Origin: an uncultured Porphyromonas sp.
GTDB taxonomy: Bacteria; Bacteroidota; Bacteroidia; Bacteroidales; Porphyromonadaceae
Assembly (NCBI GenBank): GCA_947253195.1
Contig: CAMXXM010000001.1
Location: forward strand, 1-27,607
Length of the DNA stretch: 27,607 nt
Direction: 5' to 3'
Positions 3,108 to 23,610 of this stretch are shown one piece after another. Below the pieces are notes generated by a model. That model did no database searches and was not told the origin of the DNA. It was given only the letters and a program-made list of their open reading frames with translations. Within the stretch, counting starts at the first letter, position 1, and each line of letters begins with the position of its first letter. Made by a program: the position numbers and the translations under genes.

Positions 3108-4244
3108 ATGACCGACCATCTCCTCCCGGACTATGCGGCTACTCTTGCCGACCCCTCGCTGATAGATCAGCTCTCCTCGATCCGGCTGAGAGATGCGGTA
3201 CCGCACGCCCTCCTCTTCTGCGGAGATGAGGGCGGTGAGGCACTCCCCCTTGCGACAGCCTTTGCCCGCCACATACTGTGTGAGCAGCCCGGGGCGGATG
3301 CATGTGGGCAGTGCGAGTCCTGCCGTCAGATGGATCTCTGGGAGCATCCCGACCTCTACCTCTGCTATCCGGTGATCAAGAGCGACTCCCGCGAGGTCAT
3401 CTCGGAGGATCTCCGGGAGGACTTTGCCACGCTCCTCAGGGAGCAGCGTCGGTTTGGTCCGGAGGACTGGAGGACTCTCCTCAAGGGGGGGAATAAGCAG
3501 CCACATATCTTTGTCTCAGAGGCAGATCACCTGATCCACATCACGTCACTCCGCTCTTTCAAGAGTGCCCATCAGGTGGTCCTCATCTGGCAGCCGGAGA
3601 CGATGCGGGAGGACACGGCCAATAAGTTGCTCAAGCTCCTCGAGGAGCCCCCGGTGGGGGTCATCTTCCTTGCCGTCTCTCACGATCCCTCGAGGCTCCT
3701 CGAGACGATCCTGAGCCGCTTCCAGCGGATTGATGTACCGCCCATCGAGGAGACCCGTCTCGTGGACTACCTCGTCAGCGAGTGTGGTGCCACTCCCGAG
3801 CAGGCGTATGAGGCGGGTCACCTCGCAAGGGGCAACCTCTTGCGTGCCATGAGACTCCTCGAGGGCAAGGCGCAGGATAAGGCGATCGATCTGGCGCTCG
3901 GGCTTATGGAGACAGCGATGAAGCGGACCCCAAGGGCCTACCGCGAGTTTGCCGACCAGGCAGCCGGCCTAAGTCGTCCGGAGGTGATCTCGCTCATCGA
4001 TGCGACAGACCGGATCCTCAGGGAGATGCTGGCACTGAGCTACGGGACGGATGAGATCGTCTACACCAGGCTCGCCATCCGCGACAGGATCCGGAGTGTT
4101 GCCGCCGCCGTCCCCCTTAGCTCCTACCCCCCGCTGATGGAGGATCTCTCGTCAGCACGGAGGGAGCTGATGCAAAATGCGTCCATCAAGATTGTCTTTT
4201 TTGACCTCCTCGTGACGATGGCGATGCTGATCCCCAAGCGGTAA
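3108..4244 (+). CDS. holB: DNA polymerase III subunit delta'
   Basis: This 378-residue protein is the delta' subunit of the clamp-loader complex, which opens the sliding clamp together with DnaX and HolA. Four cysteines (C58, C66, C69, C72; CX7CX2CX2C) form the structural zinc site of the clamp-loader AAA+ fold. The P-loop position reads FCGDEGGEALPLA and lacks GKT, as expected for the non-ATPase delta' subunit. NKLLKLLEEPP and the sensor segment LETILSRFQRID follow in the expected order. A C-terminal helical collar domain occupies about residues 210-378. The gene sits 7 nt after the DHOD-like gene and ends 12 nt before a strong inverted-repeat terminator, so it closes that transcript. Confidence 0.93.
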   Translation: MTDHLLPDYAATLADPSLIDQLSSIRLRDAVPHALLFCGDEGGEALPLATAFARHILCEQPGADACGQCESCRQMDLWEHPDLYLCYPVIKSDSREVISEDLREDFATLLREQRRFGPEDWRTLLKGGNKQPHIFVSEADHLIHITSLRSFKSAHQVVLIWQPETMREDTANKLLKLLEEPPVGVIFLAVSHDPSRLLETILSRFQRIDVPPIEETRLVDYLVSECGATPEQAYEAGHLARGNLLRAMRLLEGKAQDKAIDLALGLMETAMKRTPRAYREFADQAAGLSRPEVISLIDATDRILREMLALSYGTDEIVYTRLAIRDRIRSVAAAVPLSSYPPLMEDLSSARRELMQNASIKIVFFDLLVTMAMLIPKR

Positions 4245-4256
4245 AGGGTGGGGTAA

Positions 4257-4312
4257 AAACGAGCTAAGGGACCGATGCGGATCACACACCGCATCGGTCC
4301 CTTAGCTCGTTT
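4257..4312. terminator. Bidirectional intrinsic terminator, perfect 24-bp stem
   Basis: Positions 4257-4280 and 4289-4312 are perfect reverse complements (24 bp) around an 8-nt loop (ATCACACA). The arms begin with AAAC and end with GTTT, so an A tract precedes and a short T tract follows on either strand. It lies between the convergent holB (ends 4244) and rubredoxin (ends 4392) genes, the expected place for a two-way terminator. The T tract is short, but the stem is exceptionally long. Confidence 0.88.
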
Positions 4313-4391
4313 ATGGAGACCTCAGGAGAGGTTCGGATATCTATTTCTCTTCGCTACGATCTATCGCGAATGTCTTAGGGAGTGGAGGGTA

Positions 4392-4556
4392 TTACTCCTC
4401 GACCAGCTCAAAGTCATCCTTGGTGGCTCCGCAGAGGGGGCATACCCAATCCTCCGGGATGTCCTCAAAGGCTGTTCCCGGCTCGATGCCGCCGTCAGGA
4501 TCACCTACCTCGGGATCATAGACCCAGCCACAGACTGTGCACTCGTACTTCTTCAT
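4392..4556 (-). CDS. Rubredoxin
   Basis: A 54-residue rubredoxin is encoded, short enough to be missed by length-limited gene calling. The protein begins [19 protein letters not shown] and contains the two knuckles CTVCG (C6, C9) and CPLCG (C39, C42), which bind one iron. Length, spacing of the two pairs and the aromatic residues Tyr4, Trp11, Tyr13 and Trp37 are those of classical rubredoxins. It is a small cytoplasmic electron carrier, in anaerobes usually feeding rubrerythrin or superoxide reductase in oxygen or peroxide detoxification; no such partner is adjacent. It reads alone and leftward, with its own TATATTTG promoter element (4619-4612) and the shared terminator at 4257-4312 about 80 nt past its stop. 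The ATG at 4556-4554 is the only sensible start. Confidence 0.97.
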
Positions 4557-4619: not shown

Positions 4620-4698
4620 CACTTTTCCAGATACATTGCCACTGCCCCTTGGATGACGAACCGCTAAGCAGAGCGGTGTATGATCACGAGCCCTTGGT

Positions 4699-4780
4699 CT
4701 AATATCGGTATTAGAGATCACTAATACCGATAAAAGAAAATACTAATACCGATATTAATCGTCTCTAATATCGGTAAAAG
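4699..4780. repeat. 22-bp-period palindromic repeat array 1 (four units)
   Basis: Units begin at 4699, 4721, 4743 and 4765, exactly 22 bp apart. The 16-bp core is CTAATACCGATATTAG or its reverse complement CTAATATCGGTATTAG, a near-palindrome with only the central CCGA/TCGG asymmetric. Units two and four end in TAAAAG instead of TATTAG. The 6-bp gaps differ (AGATCA, AAAATA, TCGTCT). A sister array lies at 15604-15685. The function is unknown; it could be an array of operator sites or a dispersed extragenic repeat. Confidence 0.9.
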
Positions 4781-4952
4781 AATGGAGCCTGATGCCGAGG
4801 CTGTTAGCCTGCTGTAATCCACCTGATGTCTCGCAAGGGTCAGGGGGCATCAGTTGTAAGCTCAGGCATAGTCGTGTCGCTAATTTGCGATCCTCATACG
4901 CGTCACCGCTGCTCGAAGGGTGGTGCGAAGCGAGCGAGGCGTGTAAAATCAG

Positions 4953-5156: not shown

Positions 5157-5507
5157 ATGTACTATATCGCTAAGAGACTTGAGGTCGCCGGATGCCACCA
5201 TCTGGAGCTTCCCTATCCCAGCAAGTGCAGCCGAGTGCATGGGCACAACTGGATCATCACGATCTACTGCCGCTCCGAGGAGCTGAATGCTGAGGGTATG
5301 GTGGTGGACTTTAATGTCATCAAGGAACGGATCCACGCCTATCTCGACCATGGGGACTTCAATGAGCTGCTGCCCTTCAACCCCACAGCGGAGAATATTG
5401 CCCGCTGGTGTGTGGAGCAGATCCCCAATTGCTACAAGGCTAAGGTGTGTGAGTCGGAGAATAATACCGCACTCTATTCCATCGACGACAATGACGCCGG
5501 CCTATGA
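5157..5507 (+). CDS. queD: 6-carboxytetrahydropterin synthase
   Basis: This 116-residue enzyme makes 6-carboxy-5,6,7,8-tetrahydropterin from dihydroneopterin triphosphate, the second step toward preQ0 and queuosine. Zinc ligands are in CHHLELP (His14/His15) and VHGHNW (His28, His30), and the catalytic Cys24 is in SKCSRVHGH. The LDHGDFNELL block with its Asp-His pair and PTAENIARW are family hallmarks, and length is close to E. coli QueD (121). The start at 5157 is chosen because the homologous sequence begins MYYIAKRLEVAGCH; upstream in-frame codons encode non-homologous, low-quality sequence. An AAGAGGA stretch lies about 15 nt upstream. The stop overlaps the queE start (ATGA), which indicates translational coupling. 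Confidence 0.95.
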   Translation: MYYIAKRLEVAGCHHLELPYPSKCSRVHGHNWIITIYCRSEELNAEGMVVDFNVIKERIHAYLDHGDFNELLPFNPTAENIARWCVEQIPNCYKAKVCESENNTALYSIDDNDAGL

Positions 5508-11161: not shown

Positions 11162-12031
11162 TTAGGAAAGAGGGAGTAGGAATGCATATAGCGTGAAGCC
11201 GGCTATAGATCCGAGCGCGGATGTGAGAAATACAAGGCGTTGGGTATTTGTGCAGAGAAATGCGGTCACACACGAGGTGCAGAAGAAGACAGACAAAACC
11301 GGCGAGGGCATCTCTGCCGAGTAGTAGATACAGTATAGGACGAAGAGGAACCAGCCCAGCCTGAGGTGGAGATGGGTGACCCATCGGTATCTCGCGATGG
11401 CATGCCTGCGGACTATCACAGTCCCGATAGTGGTAACTGACAGAAGCATCAGGAGGGATGATACTCGTAACCGGTCGTCGGTACTGCTTGGGAGACTTGG
11501 GTGAAGAAGAGATCCATAGGTGCGGTCGATAAATCCAAGCACACCCTCGGGAGTGGGAGGCGCAAGGAGGAGGATCCCCACCCAGAGCACCATAAGCACC
11601 CCCAGAACCATGGCGGAGTAGTGCCGCCAAGTCCCCAGACCGATCTGCCTGAGCATAAAGCCAAAGATGAGGAGCGTCGGCAACCATATCGGATCGATAA
11701 GAGAAAGTAGTCCGATGCCAAGCCCGATATTAAATCCGATGAATGGGGACTTGTGCCGGGCGATCGAGGTGATGATGTACTCGCTGAGGAAGACCAGGAT
11801 GATCGTTGCGACCATCATCAGAGAGAGTGAGCGTGTAGCTATGCCTACCTGACTCATAATCAGGAGTGCCATGATGATCCACGATGTCGTCTCGTCGATA
11901 TGTGATCCGTAGCTGAGAATATTATGCCTGTGGAGCAGGAACAATAGGGCTGCGGAGAGCACGAGCGCAACTATAGGCTCAGAGAGCACTTGCTCTCCAA
12001 GTGAGGATAGCTTAGGCAGGTATTGCTCCAT
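11162..12031 (-). CDS. Polytopic membrane protein, DUF6427-like
   Basis: This 289-residue protein consists almost entirely of hydrophobic helices, roughly eight to ten, including VALVLSAALLFLL, WIIMALLIMSQVG and TIGTVIVRR segments. I see no catalytic motif. Size, helix pattern and position between purD and a GT2 gene fit the DUF6427 family, which in Bacteroidota often sits in such a cluster; this is from general knowledge of gene order, not a search. ATG 12031 is chosen because an earlier in-frame start (12109) would overlap purD and adds polar, unrelated residues. The gap to the purD stop is 22 nt. A role in glycan or lipid handling with the neighbouring glycosyltransferase is only inference. 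Confidence 0.72.
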   Translation of the reverse strand: MEQYLPKLSSLGEQVLSEPIVALVLSAALLFLLHRHNILSYGSHIDETTSWIIMALLIMSQVGIATRSLSLMMVATIILVFLSEYIITSIARHKSPFIGFNIGLGIGLLSLIDPIWLPTLLIFGFMLRQIGLGTWRHYSAMVLGVLMVLWVGILLLAPPTPEGVLGFIDRTYGSLLHPSLPSSTDDRLRVSSLLMLLSVTTIGTVIVRRHAIARYRWVTHLHLRLGWFLFVLYCIYYSAEMPSPVLSVFFCTSCVTAFLCTNTQRLVFLTSALGSIAGFTLYAFLLPLS

Positions 12032-12053
12032 AGGCTCAGTCTCCGGTCCCACC

Positions 12054-13343
12054 TTACTCGTACTCCACGAGATCCTTGCCGATGTCGTGCCGGTAGTACA
12101 TATCGTCAAAACAGGTCATCATCATCCGGTCATAGGCTCTCTTCCTCGCCCGCATGATCCCTCGATCGAGTGCGGTGACGGCAAAGACTCGCCCGCCACA
12201 CGAGCGGATGTCTCGTCCGCTGCCTGTGGTCCCGGAGTGGAAGACGATCGAGCTGTCGCTGTCGTCACCGTAGATGATGACCTGGGCGCCCTTGGGGTAG
12301 CTCTCGGGATAGCCCTTCATGGCGGCCACGACCGTGAGCGCTGTCTCCTCAATCTCACCGGGGTCCTCCGTGTCGGCCAAGCTCTGATCCCGGAGGGCAA
12401 GCAGCGAGGGAACTAGGTCGCCCGCAATCCTCGGCATTACCGCCTGTGTCTCAGGGTCGCCCATGCGGCAATTGTACTCGATGACATAGGGGTCGCCATT
12501 CTGATTCATCAGACCGAAGTAGAGGAACCCTCGGTAGTCTATCTCGTCCTCCGCAAGGCCGCGGATGGTGGGCTCGATGATCCTCTCTTTCACCTTCGTC
12601 ATAAATTCATCATCGATAAAGGGGACCGGTGATACCGCACCCATACCTCCCGTATTGAGTCCCGTATCTCCCTCACCGATGCGCTTGTAGTCCTTTGCCG
12701 TCGGCAGGATGCGGTAGCTCTTGCCATCGGTGAGGATGAAGACGGAGCACTCGATGCCGGTGAGGCAGGTCTCTATGAGGATCGTGTCGGCCGAGTGGCC
12801 AAACTTCCCCCCGAGCATGCTGTCCAGTCCCTCTTCCGCCTCCTCGAGGGTCCGGCAGATCAGCACGCCCTTCCCGGCTGCAAGGCCGTCCGCCTTAAGG
12901 ACATAGGGAGCCTTCTCTTCGTTGCGGAGGTAGTCCAGCGCCTGCTCCCGCTCGCCGGTGGTGAAGGAGCGGTACTTGGCTGTCGGGATGCCGTGCCTCT
13001 GCATAAAAGCCTTGGCGAAGTCCTTGCTTCCCTCCATCTGTGCCGCCTCACGAGTGGGACCAACGATGTGGAGGGAGCTTAGCTCAGGGCGTGCCAGTAG
13101 CCGGTTCACCAGTCCGCCCACTAAGGGCTGCTCCGGACCGACCACAAGCAGTTCGACAGACTCTTTGGTCAGAAAGTCCGCAACGGCATCGGCATCATTG
13201 ATGTCGAGGTCGGCATTCCTTGTCTTGGGGAAAGCCCCCGCATTGCCCGGTGCGATGATCACCTCGCTGACCAGTGGACTCTTAGCTATTTTCCATGCGA
13301 TGGCTTGCTCACGTCCTCCTGAGCCGAGTACTAATGCTTTCAT
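12054..13343 (-). CDS. purD: Phosphoribosylamine-glycine ligase (GARS)
   Basis: PurD joins 5-phosphoribosylamine and glycine with ATP in the second step of purine synthesis. The 429-residue protein has the N-terminal MKALVLGSGGREQAIAW, the ATP-grasp segments YVLKADGLAAGKGVLI and IECSVFIL, GGMGAVSP, and YNCRMGDPETQ for metal and ATP binding. The usual GSGGREHA motif reads GSGGREQA here, one substitution of a normally conserved His near the nucleotide-binding loop; the rest is intact, so I expect activity. It lies 20 nt downstream of ptpA and 22 nt upstream of the membrane-protein gene on the same strand, so all four genes may be one transcript. No other pur gene is in the window. Confidence 0.96.
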   Translation of the reverse strand: MKALVLGSGGREQAIAWKIAKSPLVSEVIIAPGNAGAFPKTRNADLDINDADAVADFLTKESVELLVVGPEQPLVGGLVNRLLARPELSSLHIVGPTREAAQMEGSKDFAKAFMQRHGIPTAKYRSFTTGEREQALDYLRNEEKAPYVLKADGLAAGKGVLICRTLEEAEEGLDSMLGGKFGHSADTILIETCLTGIECSVFILTDGKSYRILPTAKDYKRIGEGDTGLNTGGMGAVSPVPFIDDEFMTKVKERIIEPTIRGLAEDEIDYRGFLYFGLMNQNGDPYVIEYNCRMGDPETQAVMPRIAGDLVPSLLALRDQSLADTEDPGEIEETALTVVAAMKGYPESYPKGAQVIIYGDDSDSSIVFHSGTTGSGRDIRSCGGRVFAVTALDRGIMRARKRAYDRMMMTCFDDMYYRHDIGKDLVEYE

Positions 13344-13363: not shown

Positions 13364-15517
13364 TTACTTGAGGAAGTCGTCAAAGTAGCGACTGATGACG
13401 GTATTGAGGTGTACCCGATCCGGACCCAGGACATTGTGCTCGTGATCGGGATAGATCATATAGTCCGGGTAGGTGCGGGCGGCAATGCAGGCGTTGAGGA
13501 AGGTCTGAGAGTTTTGCCACACCACTACCGGATCGACACCGCCGTGGATGAGGAGCAGTCTCCCTCGCAGGTCCTTGGCTCGGTCAGAGAGACGCGCGGC
13601 AGCGTAGCCCTCGGGATTCTCCTGCGGGGTGTCCATATACCGCTCGCCGTACATGATCTCGTAGAACGCCCAGTCGATCACCGGACCGCCGGCGACACCG
13701 ACCTTGAAGGTATCCCCGTGGGTCAGCATCAGGTTGGTGGTCATAAAGCCACCGAAGCTCCATCCGTAAACGCCAAGTCGGTCGGTATCGACGTAGGGTA
13801 GCGAGGAGAGAAACTTTACCCCCTCCGTCTGATCCTCCATCTCCGCCTTACCCAGTCGGCGGTGGATGATGCTCTCAAAGGCCATTCCTCGATTGTTGGA
13901 TCCCCGCCCATCCACGGTGAAGACGATGTAGCCCTGCTCAGCCATATAGTTGTCCCAATTGTACCGGAGGCTCCGCCAGCTATCCGTCACCAGCTGGGCA
14001 TGAGGACCTCCGTAGACATAGACGATGGTCGGGTACTTCTTCCCCTCCTCGAGGGTGGCAGGCAGGGTCATCTTGTAGTACAGATCGGTCACCCCATCGG
14101 CAGACTTGATCGTCCCGAGACGTACCTCGGGTCGATGGGAGAGGTCGGAGGGCACCTCGCACTTCTTGAGCAGATGAGAGCGGATGGCTTTTTTCCCTAA
14201 GTCGATGACCCGAACCTCCGCCGGGGTGTCCTTGGAGCTGAAGAGGTCATACGCCGTCGTATAGTCCGCAGACAGGCTGCAGGAGTGCCACCCCCGCTCA
14301 GGGGTGACGGCGGTCATCTCGCCATTCGCAAGCGTCACTCGGTAGAGTGCCTGACCCATCGGGTAACCCTCATTGCCGACGTAGTAGGCGTAGCGATCGT
14401 CCGGCGAGATCCCGTAGAGCGACTTGACCTCCCACGCTCCCTTGGTGAGCTGACGGATCAACTTACCATCCCTTGTGCGATATAGGTAAAGGTGGCGGTA
14501 GCCGTCGATGCGGGTGGAGCGGATAAAAGCCTTGCCGTCACCGGTAAAGGCAATGGGCTCCAGTGGCTCGACGTACCTCTCGTTGCGCTCTGTCAGCACG
14601 GTCCGCACGGGGCGACCGCTCACCACACTGTACTCCACCAGGTTGCACTCGTCCTGCGAGCGCTTCACCTCATCGATGTAGAGGCTCTTCTCATCCGGTG
14701 CCCAGGAGAGGTTGGTGAAGTACCTGTCTGTCGGCTCACCGGTGGCGAGGTAGCGGATGGAGCCATCTGCCGTGTCGTAGATGCCTACGGTCGTATGCTG
14801 GGAGCCTTGCCCGGCCATCGGGTACTTCAGCGGGTCACTCTCTGCTATCGGACGATGGATCCGGACGATCGGGTAGTCCGTCACCTCAGACTGGTCGATG
14901 CGGTAAAAGGCGAAGTACCTGCCGCTCGGGGAGAAGAAGATACCCGACTCGGTCCCAAACTCGTTCCGTGCGGCCGGCATCCCATAGACAATATTGTGCG
15001 ATGAGTCGCTCACCAGCACCCGGGGCTCTGCCGCACCGCTCTCCAGTAGAGCCATCGTCTCGCCGTCTGAGAGGACGATGTAGGAGGCTCCCGGAGCCAC
15101 GTGTAGATGCTGCCACCGCTTCGTGTCGTACGCAAAGTGCTTGGCGATGGATCCGGACTTCAGGTCGATGAAGTCGATGCCCCTCTCCGTGGTGCGGGAC
15201 AAGTACTCACCTTTTCCGAACACCGTCAGCCAGGGAAGTGCCTTGGTCGGGGCGTCGTCGATCTGTGACCACTCTTGCAGCGTCAGGAGATCGGTCTCGT
15301 GACCGGACTTGTCCACCAGCTTGAGCCCCTCCTTGTCATAGGTGACCACGCCATCGCCGATGATCCCGCAGATCGTCGGTGTAGAGGGCTGGTGGCTCCG
15401 GTAGGTCTTCCCACCTGGGGTGACGTCATCCAGAGTCAGTGGCTCGACGGTCTGTGCCGGCAGCAGATGGCAGCCGGCGATCAGGGAGAGGAGAAAAAGG
15501 TAAGTTTTGGTACTCAT
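13364..15517 (-). CDS. ptpA: Prolyl tripeptidyl peptidase (S9 family)
   Basis: This 717-residue S9B serine peptidase should release tripeptides X-Y-Pro from peptide N-termini, feeding an amino-acid-fermenting metabolism. From my recollection of P. gingivalis PtpA the match is close: GWSFGGFMTTNLMLTHG with Ser587, IHGGVDPVVVWQ with Asp662, and HEHNVLGPDRVHL with His694; spacing (75 and 32) equals that of PtpA S603/D678/H710. Glu620 (YEIMYGERY) corresponds to PtpA Glu636, which anchors the substrate N-terminus. True DPP IV proteins from this genus differ here, so PtpA is the better call. A beta-propeller occupies about residues 40-450. The signal peptide contains LIAGC (Cys16), a possible lipobox, unlike the secretory signal I recall for P. 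gingivalis. The second repeat array lies about 90 nt upstream. Confidence 0.93.
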   Translation of the reverse strand: MSTKTYLFLLSLIAGCHLLPAQTVEPLTLDDVTPGGKTYRSHQPSTPTICGIIGDGVVTYDKEGLKLVDKSGHETDLLTLQEWSQIDDAPTKALPWLTVFGKGEYLSRTTERGIDFIDLKSGSIAKHFAYDTKRWQHLHVAPGASYIVLSDGETMALLESGAAEPRVLVSDSSHNIVYGMPAARNEFGTESGIFFSPSGRYFAFYRIDQSEVTDYPIVRIHRPIAESDPLKYPMAGQGSQHTTVGIYDTADGSIRYLATGEPTDRYFTNLSWAPDEKSLYIDEVKRSQDECNLVEYSVVSGRPVRTVLTERNERYVEPLEPIAFTGDGKAFIRSTRIDGYRHLYLYRTRDGKLIRQLTKGAWEVKSLYGISPDDRYAYYVGNEGYPMGQALYRVTLANGEMTAVTPERGWHSCSLSADYTTAYDLFSSKDTPAEVRVIDLGKKAIRSHLLKKCEVPSDLSHRPEVRLGTIKSADGVTDLYYKMTLPATLEEGKKYPTIVYVYGGPHAQLVTDSWRSLRYNWDNYMAEQGYIVFTVDGRGSNNRGMAFESIIHRRLGKAEMEDQTEGVKFLSSLPYVDTDRLGVYGWSFGGFMTTNLMLTHGDTFKVGVAGGPVIDWAFYEIMYGERYMDTPQENPEGYAAARLSDRAKDLRGRLLLIHGGVDPVVVWQNSQTFLNACIAARTYPDYMIYPDHEHNVLGPDRVHLNTVISRYFDDFLK

Positions 15518-15779
15518 TTTATCTCTATTTATACTCTTATATTAGATGTACAGGACAATCGCATGAGGAAGGTCCCCCGGAATAGTGTCGGTATGAGAGA
15601 AAACTAATACCGATATTAGTGATCACTAATACCGATATTAGTCGCCACTAATACCGATATTAGCCGTCACTAATATCGGTAAAAGAAATCACCCCGATGG
15701 GGACGGACGTTTTCGTCATGATCCATTACTCACTCTCTCTTGCGTTAGCTCAGTGTAAATGTACCAAAAGAAGTCCGAA
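15518..15779. other. Intergenic region between ptpA start and MATE end
   Basis: No gene is visible. It contains the second 22-bp repeat array (15582-15685) and, just beside it, a short CCCC-GAT-GGGG hairpin (15692-15702), followed on the minus strand by a T-rich stretch that could be a weak terminator for the MATE operon. No TAnnTTTG element was found before ptpA. Confidence 0.5.
15582..15685. repeat. 22-bp-period palindromic repeat array 2
   Basis: Perfect 16-bp cores CTAATACCGATATTAG start at 15604, 15626 and 15648; a fourth variant, CTAATATCGGTAAAAG, starts at 15670. All are exactly 22 bp apart, with gaps TGATCA, TCGCCA and CCGTCA. A degenerate unit (about 12 of 16 matches) sits in phase at 15582. 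The array shares core, period, unit number and the closing TAAAAGAA with the array at 4699-4780. Confidence 0.9.
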
Positions 15780-17156
15780 TCATGCTCCCTCGGGTATCTC
15801 CTCCACAGGCGCATCGGTGGGCGGGTAGATCTTGGCGCGTCCCTTGAGCAGGTAATAGCCACCCGCGAGGGTCCCCTTGAGGATGCAGGTGATGCAGATC
15901 GTCCACCAGAGGCAGGAGATCCCACCGATCAGGCTGAGCAGCACGAGAGCCAGGGGGATACGGAGGAAGTTGCACCCGATACTGATCGCTGATGGGGGTA
16001 GTGGGCGTCGCATGCCGTAGAAGAAACCTTGGAAGCAGACCTCGACCATCATAAAGGCTTGAGCCCATGCATCGATCCGGAGGTACTCCGCCCCTGCGGC
16101 GATACCGTGAGGATCTTTGGGGATGATGAGGGAGAATAACCACGACCCGCCGAAGTAATTGATCAGCGTCCCCACGATCCCGAAGAATAGGCAGAGCCAG
16201 AGGGTAAATCGCAGTCCCTCGCGGATCCGTCCATACTTCGCTGCGCCATAGTTTTGCGACACAAAGCTGGAGAGAGACGTGGAGAAGCCCTGACCCGCAT
16301 TCCACGTGATGCCCTCCAGCTGTCCACCGATCGTCAGGGTCATCACGCCGGTGGCGCCACCGGCCGCCGAGGCGAAGCGACCAAGGGTAAGGTTGATCAC
16401 CGCTAGGAACGCATTCATCAGCGCTGCCGGTACCCCCAGCTTAAGTATGGTCCGGGTCGTCTGGGCAGACAGCTTCCGGATCATCCGGAAGCCTCCCAGC
16501 AGCCGATCTCGGTACTTCATCTGGATGAGGAAGAGCGACATCAGGATCGCCTGTGAGAGCACCGTGGCGAGAGCGGCACCCCGTATGCCGAGACCGAGGA
16601 CAAAGATGAATATCGGATCAAGGATCATATTGAGCCCCAGCCCGATCACATTGACCACAAAGGGGATCTTGGAGAGTCCGGAGGCATTATATATCCCGAT
16701 GAATGCATTGCTGAGAAAGATGAAGGGGAACCCCAGCGCACAGAGCCTCAGGTAGTCTGTCGCATACCTGTCCACCGGTGCCTCGAGCCCGTAGAAGCCG
16801 ATGAAGGTGTCTGTGAAGAGTACAAAGGTGAACGAGGTGACGAGACCGAGGTAGAGTGCCAGTGTGATATTGTGAGCCGCAAAGTCCGCTGCTGCCCGCT
16901 CGTCCTTTCGCCCAATGCCATTAGCCACCGTCACCTCAGCGCCTACCTTGGTGATGAGCGTAAAGCAATTGACCAGCCAGGTAAAGATGGAAGCCGCACC
17001 GGAGGCGGCGACCGTCTGGCTACTCAGCCGTCCCAGCCACGCCATGTCGACGAAGCTGTAGAGCATTAGGGTAAATGAGCTCCCCAGTATCGGAAGTGCC
17101 AGCGAAACGATCTGCTTACCGATCGGTCCCCCGGTAAGGTCCCTTGCCTCTCTCAT
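15780..17156 (-). CDS. MATE family multidrug/cation efflux transporter
   Basis: This 458-residue inner-membrane antiporter exports drugs or metabolites in exchange for Na+ or H+. It has the two repeated MatE halves (about 15-175 and 240-400) with about twelve hydrophobic helices; the start GGPIGKQIVSLALPILGSSF and MAWLGRLSSQTVAA are typical of bacterial NorM/DinF-type proteins. The gene begins 6 nt after the rlmN stop and is the last of the ctp-SUI1-addA-rlmN-MATE run. The substrate cannot be told. The region downstream has only a weak terminator candidate and the 22-bp repeat array. Confidence 0.94.
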   Translation of the reverse strand: MREARDLTGGPIGKQIVSLALPILGSSFTLMLYSFVDMAWLGRLSSQTVAASGAASIFTWLVNCFTLITKVGAEVTVANGIGRKDERAAADFAAHNITLALYLGLVTSFTFVLFTDTFIGFYGLEAPVDRYATDYLRLCALGFPFIFLSNAFIGIYNASGLSKIPFVVNVIGLGLNMILDPIFIFVLGLGIRGAALATVLSQAILMSLFLIQMKYRDRLLGGFRMIRKLSAQTTRTILKLGVPAALMNAFLAVINLTLGRFASAAGGATGVMTLTIGGQLEGITWNAGQGFSTSLSSFVSQNYGAAKYGRIREGLRFTLWLCLFFGIVGTLINYFGGSWLFSLIIPKDPHGIAAGAEYLRIDAWAQAFMMVEVCFQGFFYGMRRPLPPSAISIGCNFLRIPLALVLLSLIGGISCLWWTICITCILKGTLAGGYYLLKGRAKIYPPTDAPVEEIPEGA

Positions 17157-23524: not shown

Positions 23525-23610
23525 CTGAGGTAACACGACTTGGTGTCATGGTCATATAGGATAGACACAAAGTTCCACTTTTTCCCCCACCTTCCCAAAC
23601 AAAAGCGGAT

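Follow-up and report, generated by a model that had tools for sequence, protein, structure and literature searches.

Evenly spaced arrays of 22-bp-step palindromes in Porphyromonas suggest chromosomal landmarks for a putative DNA-binding protein

Introduction

The matS sites of MatP, the binding sites of Noc and the BIMEs bound by gyrase are examples of systems in which many short palindromic sites on a chromosome are read by one protein; the sites are mostly single and conserved in sequence. By their layout, these systems appear to be the best functional analogy for the arrays described here, which differ from them in three ways: sites come in threes or fours and in phase, neighbouring arrays are kept strongly apart, and relatives have another word. 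REP sequences and REPINs, which go with RAYT transposases, are dispersed intergenic palindromes that are private to a species and present in many copies. The arrays resemble them in all these respects; they differ in being built of 3-4 in-phase units, in being evenly spaced and in that a Y1 transposase was found in only 4 of 12 genomes of the genus. Plasmid iterons are tandem binding sites with a step of about 22 bp, lying on one helical face and belonging to a single origin; the arrays are like them in step and helical face, and are found chromosome-wide. Among dispersed chromosomal protein-binding sites, the combination of even spacing and private words is classed as new.

Within the genus, BrickBuilt is a MITE/minisatellite of P. 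gingivalis and P. gulae for which the accessible part of the paper gives 19 loci with 1 to 22.8 copies, a leader of up to 285 nt, a tail of up to 318 nt and IS5-like terminal inverted repeats (TIRs) of the GAGACCTTTGCA type (PMC4596501). The arrays share with it, as far as that text goes, the genus, the intergenic position, tandem units of 22-23 nt and the loss or gain of whole units; against its 19 loci of variable copy number stand 108 arrays in 1.56 Mb, mostly of 3-4 units and mutually exclusive (PMC4596501). The same text cites 22-nt direct repeats in P. gingivalis W83, which are alike in unit length and genus, are known here by this mention, without sequence or places, and may be the P. 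gingivalis counterpart of the arrays (PMC4596501). A literature search that had most subscription papers outside its reach found no account of these arrays as a family or of evenly spaced copies in Porphyromonas, and the accessible part of PMC5771137 yielded no passage on such arrays.

The window and its two arrays

The window is the whole stretch of 27,607 nucleotides that was analysed. Its species is not P. gingivalis, which the sequence-only reading had mentioned; it is close to Porphyromonas sp. HMSC065F10 (G001), with 93.0-95.5% identity over long pieces, and to P. bennonis (G002), with 87-89%. Array 1 had been described from the letters alone as four 16-bp near-palindromes with a step of exactly 22 bp, lying between divergent rubredoxin and queD genes. 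Both statements hold: the units keep the exact step (Table 1), with AGATCA, AAAATA and TCGTCT as the gaps between them, and the domains of the two neighbours confirm the genes, whose starts lie 142 bp (rubredoxin) and 376 bp (queD) from the array. Array 2 lies 10.9 kb from array 1. By the border types described below, array 1 is an A-B array; the left border of array 2 is of type B as found, which makes it B-B, and of type A if the degenerate fifth unit is taken as the array edge, which makes it A-B. In total, the window holds eight unit matches at up to three mismatches, against a mean of 0.10 and a maximum of 1 in 100 dinucleotide shuffles. Tandem Repeats Finder reported array 2 only; array 1 was probably missed because its gaps are too unlike one another. 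Between a gene ending at 4244 and the rubredoxin gene, a strong hairpin with a 20-bp stem and a T tail (minus strand, 4261-4308) is a good candidate for an intrinsic terminator.

Table 1. Positions of the array features and neighbouring genes in the window
Feature	Positions	Strand	Basis or remark
Array 1 unit 1, CTAATATCGGTATTAG	4699..4714	+	0 mismatches to CTAATAYCGRTATTAG
Array 1 unit 2, CTAATACCGATAAAAG	4721..4736	+	2 mismatches to CTAATAYCGRTATTAG
Array 1 unit 3, CTAATACCGATATTAA	4743..4758	+	1 mismatch to CTAATAYCGRTATTAG
Array 1 unit 4, CTAATATCGGTAAAAG	4765..4780	+	2 mismatches to CTAATAYCGRTATTAG
Array 1 left border, type A (outward ACCAAGGGC; family consensus TTTGAGGGC)	4675..4698		mixture model
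Array 1 right border, type B (family consensus AATTnnCCCtGA..GGG)	4781..4804		mixture model, posterior 0.96
Array 2, four units, period 22 (15604, 15626, 15648, 15670)	15604..15685	+	motif scan and Tandem Repeats Finder
Array 2 degenerate fifth unit, ATAGTGTCGGTATGAG, 22-bp phase kept	15582..15597	+	read from sequence
181-bp stretch with array 2, absent from the orthologous place of HMSC065F10	15562..15742		genome comparison
Rubredoxin gene, neighbour of array 1	4391..4556	-	PF00301
queD (PTPS) gene, neighbour of array 1	5157..5507	+	PF01242
Dipeptidyl peptidase IV-like gene, array 2 upstream of it	13364..15517	-	PF00930, PF00326
MATE transporter gene, array 2 downstream of it	15780..17156	-	PF01554

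Anatomy of units, spacers and borders

The unit logo is symmetric, CTAWTAYCGRTAWTAG, and its outer CT/AG and central CG are almost invariant. In 116 non-redundant arrays among the matches listed, a set that takes in matches from up to four unrelated genomes, four units were counted in 59 arrays, three in 47, two in 6 and one in 4, so that 106 of the 116 have 3-4 units. Neighbouring units are 22 bp apart in 272 of the 277 cases in this set, and the five exceptions include two of 12 bp. The gaps had been called non-conserved, which is right in so far as 147 kinds occur among 236 spacers; their composition, on the other hand, is constrained (W-S-W-W-S-W), with A/T at positions 1 and 6 in 89% and 93%, respectively.

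Identity was compared in seven orthologous array pairs, six of them between HMSC065F10 and P. bennonis and one between window array 1 and HMSC065F10, with gaps set aside. It was found to be 87% in the units (334/384), 56% in the spacers (55/99), 69% in the near flanks (188/271) and 70% in the farther flanks (917/1317), figures that retain one visibly misaligned species pair and leave out one with N runs. Together with the fixed distance, the difference between units and spacers supports the view of the sequence-only reading that the palindromic unit and its 22-bp phase are under selection and that the arrays are not plain tandem duplicates. The faster divergence of spacers than of flanks suggests that units are also rewritten through copying between arrays. 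In some arrays the order of the spacers agrees, in up to 17 of 18 bases, and the flanks do not; hence, arrays seem to be copied.

A mixture model of 292 array ends (146 arrays of HMSC065F10 and P. bennonis) gave three types of border, each about 10-40 bp in length: A (TTTGAGGGC), B (AATTnnCCCtGA..GGG) and the longer C, with CTGCTGATAACCAG. The pairs observed in the 146 arrays were A-B in 48, A-C in 43, B-B in 42, B-C in 10, A-A in 3 and C-C in none, and the pairing is non-random, with 17.6 expected for A-C and 16.1 for A-A. The profile of the C type matches 19 of the 292 ends. In P. bennonis, this border shows CTGCTGATAACCAG and a similarity fading over about 100 bp, and it may be a second binding site or the leftover of a longer element. 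The idea, formed by eye, that GC-rich inverted repeats frame the arrays was rejected, as the scores equalled those of mismatched left and right pairs in 105 arrays. Many flank pairs match, yet most of the frequent flank words are no rarer in array-free gaps; two words stand out, GCCCTCAGA, found at 7 of 108 arrays and in 1 of 243 array-free gaps, and AAATGTACC, found at 7 of 108 and in none of 243.

Occurrence in genomes, plasmids and viruses

At up to two mismatches, the unit occurs 324 times in HMSC065F10 and 413 times in P. bennonis, and a reversed control pattern once in each. The genome scans that the sequence-only reading had proposed return hundreds of copies with a fixed 22-bp period, mostly in groups of 3-4 units. 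When one genome of each species was scanned for pairs of units with starts 16-44 bp apart, at least 120 stretches were found; among those listed, 116 come from HMSC065F10 and P. bennonis and four are single matches elsewhere, which were taken as chance or unrelated repeats. A repeat with a 22-bp step in a Comamonadaceae MAG (L028 6694-6731) matches the dimer pattern and is apparently unrelated. Carriers of the dimer are 2 of the 12 genomes of the genus and 2 of 38 at family level. The dimer pattern had no match in IMG/VR, array 2 had none in phages and array 1 had none in 72,556 plasmid records, the latter being a further difference from plasmid iterons. In all, 108 arrays were located in 1.56 Mb, 42 in 783 kb of HMSC065F10 and 66 in 775 kb of P. 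bennonis. Some contigs start inside or near an array (e.g. G001:C8:1, G002:C2:348 and G002:C4:300), and arrays may break assemblies.

Even spacing along the chromosome

Spacing was analysed in 17 contig stretches (783 kb of HMSC065F10 and 775 kb of P. bennonis) with 91 spacings. The mean distance between arrays is 18 kb in HMSC065F10 and 11 kb in P. bennonis, with medians of 16.4 and 9.6 kb. Only one of the 91 spacings in 1.56 Mb is below 5 kb, where about 22 were expected. The detector took two in-phase units with up to four mismatches; decayed arrays that it missed could hide some short spacings. HMSC065F10 has none among 35, against a mean of 6.9 under random intergenic placement, for which the lowest of 2000 simulations was 1; P. 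bennonis has one among 56, against 15.4 and a lowest value of 7, and this sole short spacing includes a single-unit match. The coefficient of variation (CV) of the spacings lies below that of all 2000 random-intergenic sets in both genomes, and under uniform placement 1 of 2000 sets reaches the CV of HMSC065F10. When four further intergenic nulls were applied, no more than 1 of 1000 sets reached so small a count below 5 kb, and no more than 4 of 1000 so low a CV. Some stretches of 25-44 kb are free of arrays.

Four other dispersed words were treated as controls, with places less than 1 kb apart merged; two word/genome pairs had too few places. The MITE-end repeat GAGACCTTTGCA gave 5 of 20 spacings below 5 kb in HMSC065F10 (null 4.9), that is, no exclusion, and ACCCCATCTG gave 5 of 23 there (null 5.8). 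For GCAAAGGTAC, the counts were 2 of 14 in HMSC065F10 (null 2.0) and 4 of 13 in P. bennonis (null 1.8), the latter if anything clustered, and for ACGCATTTGA they were 0 of 9 and 0 of 5 (null 1.1 and 0.8), numbers too small to judge. The arrays of HMSC065F10 and P. bennonis are therefore distributed non-randomly on the chromosome, a trait of matS and of the Noc binding sites (NBS). Random scatter with a variable period, or residence in clear mobile elements, had been named as what would speak against a regulatory array; the period was found to be fixed and the scatter over-even, so that this outcome was not seen.

The same step with private words in other genomes of the genus

Intergenic repeats were sought by a lag scan of 18-200 kb samples from ten further Porphyromonas genomes (G003-G012). 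Repeats at lag 22 were found in eight of the ten: six in G003 (one being other sequence), five in G012, four in G004 (two being long minisatellites), three in G006, two in G005 and one each in G007, G008 (a doubtful case) and G009. G011 has five stretches at lag 23, G010 has none at the same threshold, and other lags average 0 to 0.23. Two 20-kb samples from the same family outside the genus also gave lag-22 repeats at a slightly looser threshold, a sample too small for a general statement on the family. The words are GTTTCCAGTAGGAAAC, alternating with a second unit, in G012, CTAAGTTCCCAACTTAG (17+6) in G011, CTTAGTTGCAACTAAG in G006, AAGTCGTAAGA[C/T]TCGA in G003 and TTTATTCCTAGGAATAAA in G005.

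Four of these words were counted in the whole genomes of the 12 genus members (forward/reverse strand, up to two mismatches). The G012 word occurs 259/253 times in its own genome and no more than eight times per strand in any of the remaining 11, the G011 word 149/163 times and at most once per strand, and the G003 word 82/81 times and at most three times per strand. The G006 word is a palindrome, for which both strands are the same places, and was counted 159/159 times in G006 and at most four times elsewhere. All four have about 160-510 copies in their own genome and few in others.

Exclusion was also seen in G012, where none of 22 arrays in 200 kb is closer to the next than 3.4 kb; the null gives 3.9 spacings below 3 kb, and 13 of 2000 sets are as low. 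The CV is not low in this genome (1948 of 2000 null sets are as low or lower), because of two long gaps. In G011 and G003, with 5 and 7 arrays only, spacing is indistinguishable from chance. Unit length varies among the relatives, and some arrays are much longer. At G003:C1:812817-812986, eight successive units of the G003 word follow in 22-bp steps, where the seven arrays found in 200 kb of this genome have 2-4 units each, and at about 154011-154314 and 175147-175574 of G004:C8 (L297, L298) there are 22-bp minisatellites of many units, which may be expanded relatives of the arrays. Hence, the unit number is not always 3-4.

Proposed role as binding platforms

The even arrays and the same layout with another word in relatives suggest a landmark for a putative DNA-binding protein. 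In the reading preferred here, to which a probability of roughly 0.5 is given, the arrays would be binding platforms of a putative, probably dimeric, sequence-specific protein and would act as chromosome-wide landmarks. Three or four symmetric CTAWTAYCGRTAWTAG sites at steps of 22 bp, or about two helical turns, would line up three or four dimers along the same helical face. Platforms that lie in intergenic gaps and far from one another would be anchors of loops or domains rather than operators of neighbouring genes, and the role of the putative protein would probably be architectural. Relatives that keep a step of 22 or 23 bp with private palindromes would be cases in which site and reader change together. 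Judged by geometry, the arrays of the genus members may belong to a single system. The widest form of this proposal is a "ruler" of the Porphyromonadaceae, in which one orthologous architectural protein would change its word from species to species in genome-wide co-evolution and keep the geometry (a 22/23-bp step, mostly 3-4 sites and an exclusion of several kb); it is put forward tentatively, as something we would sooner bet against than for.

If the arrays are landmarks, they would give a direct handle on how a bacterial chromosome is split up into domains of about 10 kb; this old question is usually tackled without known boundary sequences. Keeping the step and replacing the word at hundreds of sites would mean that protein and site have co-evolved across the whole genome, which would be unusual, and the reader would then be predictable from correlated change. 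Against the platform reading counts that no binding protein was found, with LacI-family and extra ParB-like proteins absent from HMSC065F10 and P. bennonis; the long array-free stretches, the CV of G012, the chance-like spacing in G011 and G003, the varying unit length and longer arrays of the relatives, the copied arrays and the turnover described next, including the lack of array 2 in HMSC065F10, also count against it.

Turnover and mobility

Sixteen places could be compared between HMSC065F10 and P. bennonis; eight have the array in common (one of them loosely), three have it only in HMSC065F10 and five only in P. bennonis. Sharing of eight in 16 is a high turnover for an essential landmark, and, with half of the compared sites private to one species, mobility of the arrays is possible. 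The main alternative is a miniature mobile element of which the array is the core and whose mobiliser, bound by the palindromes, shuns sites near an existing copy. Such target immunity is known from Tn7 and Mu, and the even spacing would be its by-product. At six places where an array is present in one genome and absent from the other, the empty side has at most 10 bp between the flanking matches and the filled side 158, 160, 183, 305, 689 and 1375 bp, which counts in favour of such an element. The exclusion zone of about 5 kb, the non-random pairing of border types and the spacer order common to arrays without common flanks point the same way, as do the Y1 transposases (PF01797) that occur in G001, G002, G006 and G012, with two copies each in HMSC065F10 and P. 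bennonis.

The missing stretches, however, end differently each time. In the comparison of filled and empty sides (five of the six places aligned, and the place between the dipeptidyl peptidase and MATE genes), inspection by eye showed neither common ends nor a terminal repeat or target duplication common to them, at a divergence of 5-15% that limits the view, and the flanking inverted repeats did no better than mismatched pairs. At the place of array 2, P. bennonis has the stretch minus one 22-bp unit, and in HMSC065F10 the 181 bp are missing and the flanks are joined. Since the array is missing in the sister genome and present in the more distant one, its absence from HMSC065F10 is best read as a loss, which is deletion-like. 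A genus-wide 22-bp step with unrelated sequences would be odd for unrelated transposons, and the lack of matches in IMG/VR, plasmids and phages is a further point against mobility. A mobile element would account for the exclusion and the turnover, and not for the missing common ends or the step shared by unrelated words; it is a possible explanation, if a rather improbable one. Were it true, a miniature element with built-in target immunity would apparently be new too. RAYT as a mobiliser for the whole genus was rejected, as Y1 is absent from 8 of 12 genomes and G003 and G011 have arrays without it; this rejection covers the genus-wide role only. The window stops being colinear with HMSC065F10 at 23607, only 3 bp short of an array of that genome (L208, G001:C73, near 18870), and arrays may be located at rearrangement points.

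Position relative to genes

Gene positions were taken from a home-made coding-potential caller, whose calls for the window lack at least one likely gene (around 11162-12109). In the 1.56 Mb of HMSC065F10 and P. bennonis, 107 of 108 arrays are intergenic. Gene context was counted for the 85 multi-unit arrays that are flanked by called genes or overlap one, of which 84 are intergenic; the count omits single-unit matches, those in stray genomes and 25 arrays that are not flanked by called genes on both sides. The sequence-only reading had taken array 1 for a regulatory array of the adjoining promoters, and the intergenic position and at least one gene start beside 74 of 84 arrays would agree with operators for a regulator of the adjoining genes. 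The gaps are, however, tandem in 51 cases, divergent in 23 and convergent in 10, much the mix seen in 172 background gaps of at least 150 bp from the same loci (112, 41 and 19), and the distances range widely, with a median of 208 bp to starts (10th-90th percentile 88-582 bp) and 112 bp to stops. This is not the pattern of an operator. Ten arrays between convergent genes, orthologous gaps that often lack the array and the even spacing along the chromosome also disagree with it. Promoter control is unlikely, and the regulatory part of the earlier reading is not supported.

Base pairing, folding and candidate readers

The palindromes could instead act as hairpins in RNA or as cruciforms, for example as a bidirectional terminator, an insulator or a transcript stabiliser. 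The folding of each array is far stronger than that of shuffled sequences on either strand (z -6.8 to -12.2), as is expected of any palindromic array. Terminator-like calls fell on two units of array 1 (minus strand) and on the right border of array 2, and by eye the arrays of several relatives finish in T runs. On the other side, no compensatory changes were found within units at the mirror positions 4 and 13: in P. bennonis (n=235), AT (73), AA (67), TT (57) and TA (35) occur in near independence, and in HMSC065F10 the swapped pair TA was found in 2 of 91. Of 18 unit pairs, 3 were more complementary than in reshuffled arrays (p<0.05), with about one expected; these were the pair 1-2 once and the pair 1-3 twice, and adjacent pairs of four-unit arrays showed no excess. 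Convergent gaps are not enriched, and no Rfam family matches the window. Selection for a hairpin or cruciform is therefore not supported despite the good folding, and an RNA or cruciform element is improbable. With neither compensation nor consistent pairing between units, the symmetry is read as two half-sites for a protein dimer, in keeping with the platform reading.

Several candidates were tried and set aside. A LacI-type reader, an idea that came from the central CpG, was dropped, as PF00356 was above the cut-off in none of the 12 genomes and had no match in HMSC065F10 and P. bennonis. A Noc-like second ParB was dropped as well, since PF02195 is present in one copy in each of 11 genomes and absent from G009. 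A CRISPR array, judged on repeat dimensions, does not fit 16-bp units with 6-bp gaps.

A BrickBuilt-type minisatellite/MITE, though in the same genus, intergenic and built of tandem 22-23-nt units, is very improbable, because the accessible text describes 1 to 22.8 copies, a long leader and tail and GAGACCTTTGCA-type TIRs and no genome-wide spacing, whereas the arrays have other borders without TIRs, leader and tail, and a 22-bp repeat in mostly 3-4 units instead of widely variable 23-nt repeats (PMC4596501). The word GAGACCTTTGCA itself, compared with the BrickBuilt end over its 12 bp only and like it, is dispersed in HMSC065F10, where it was found at 26 places in 783 kb, against one in 775 kb of P. 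bennonis.
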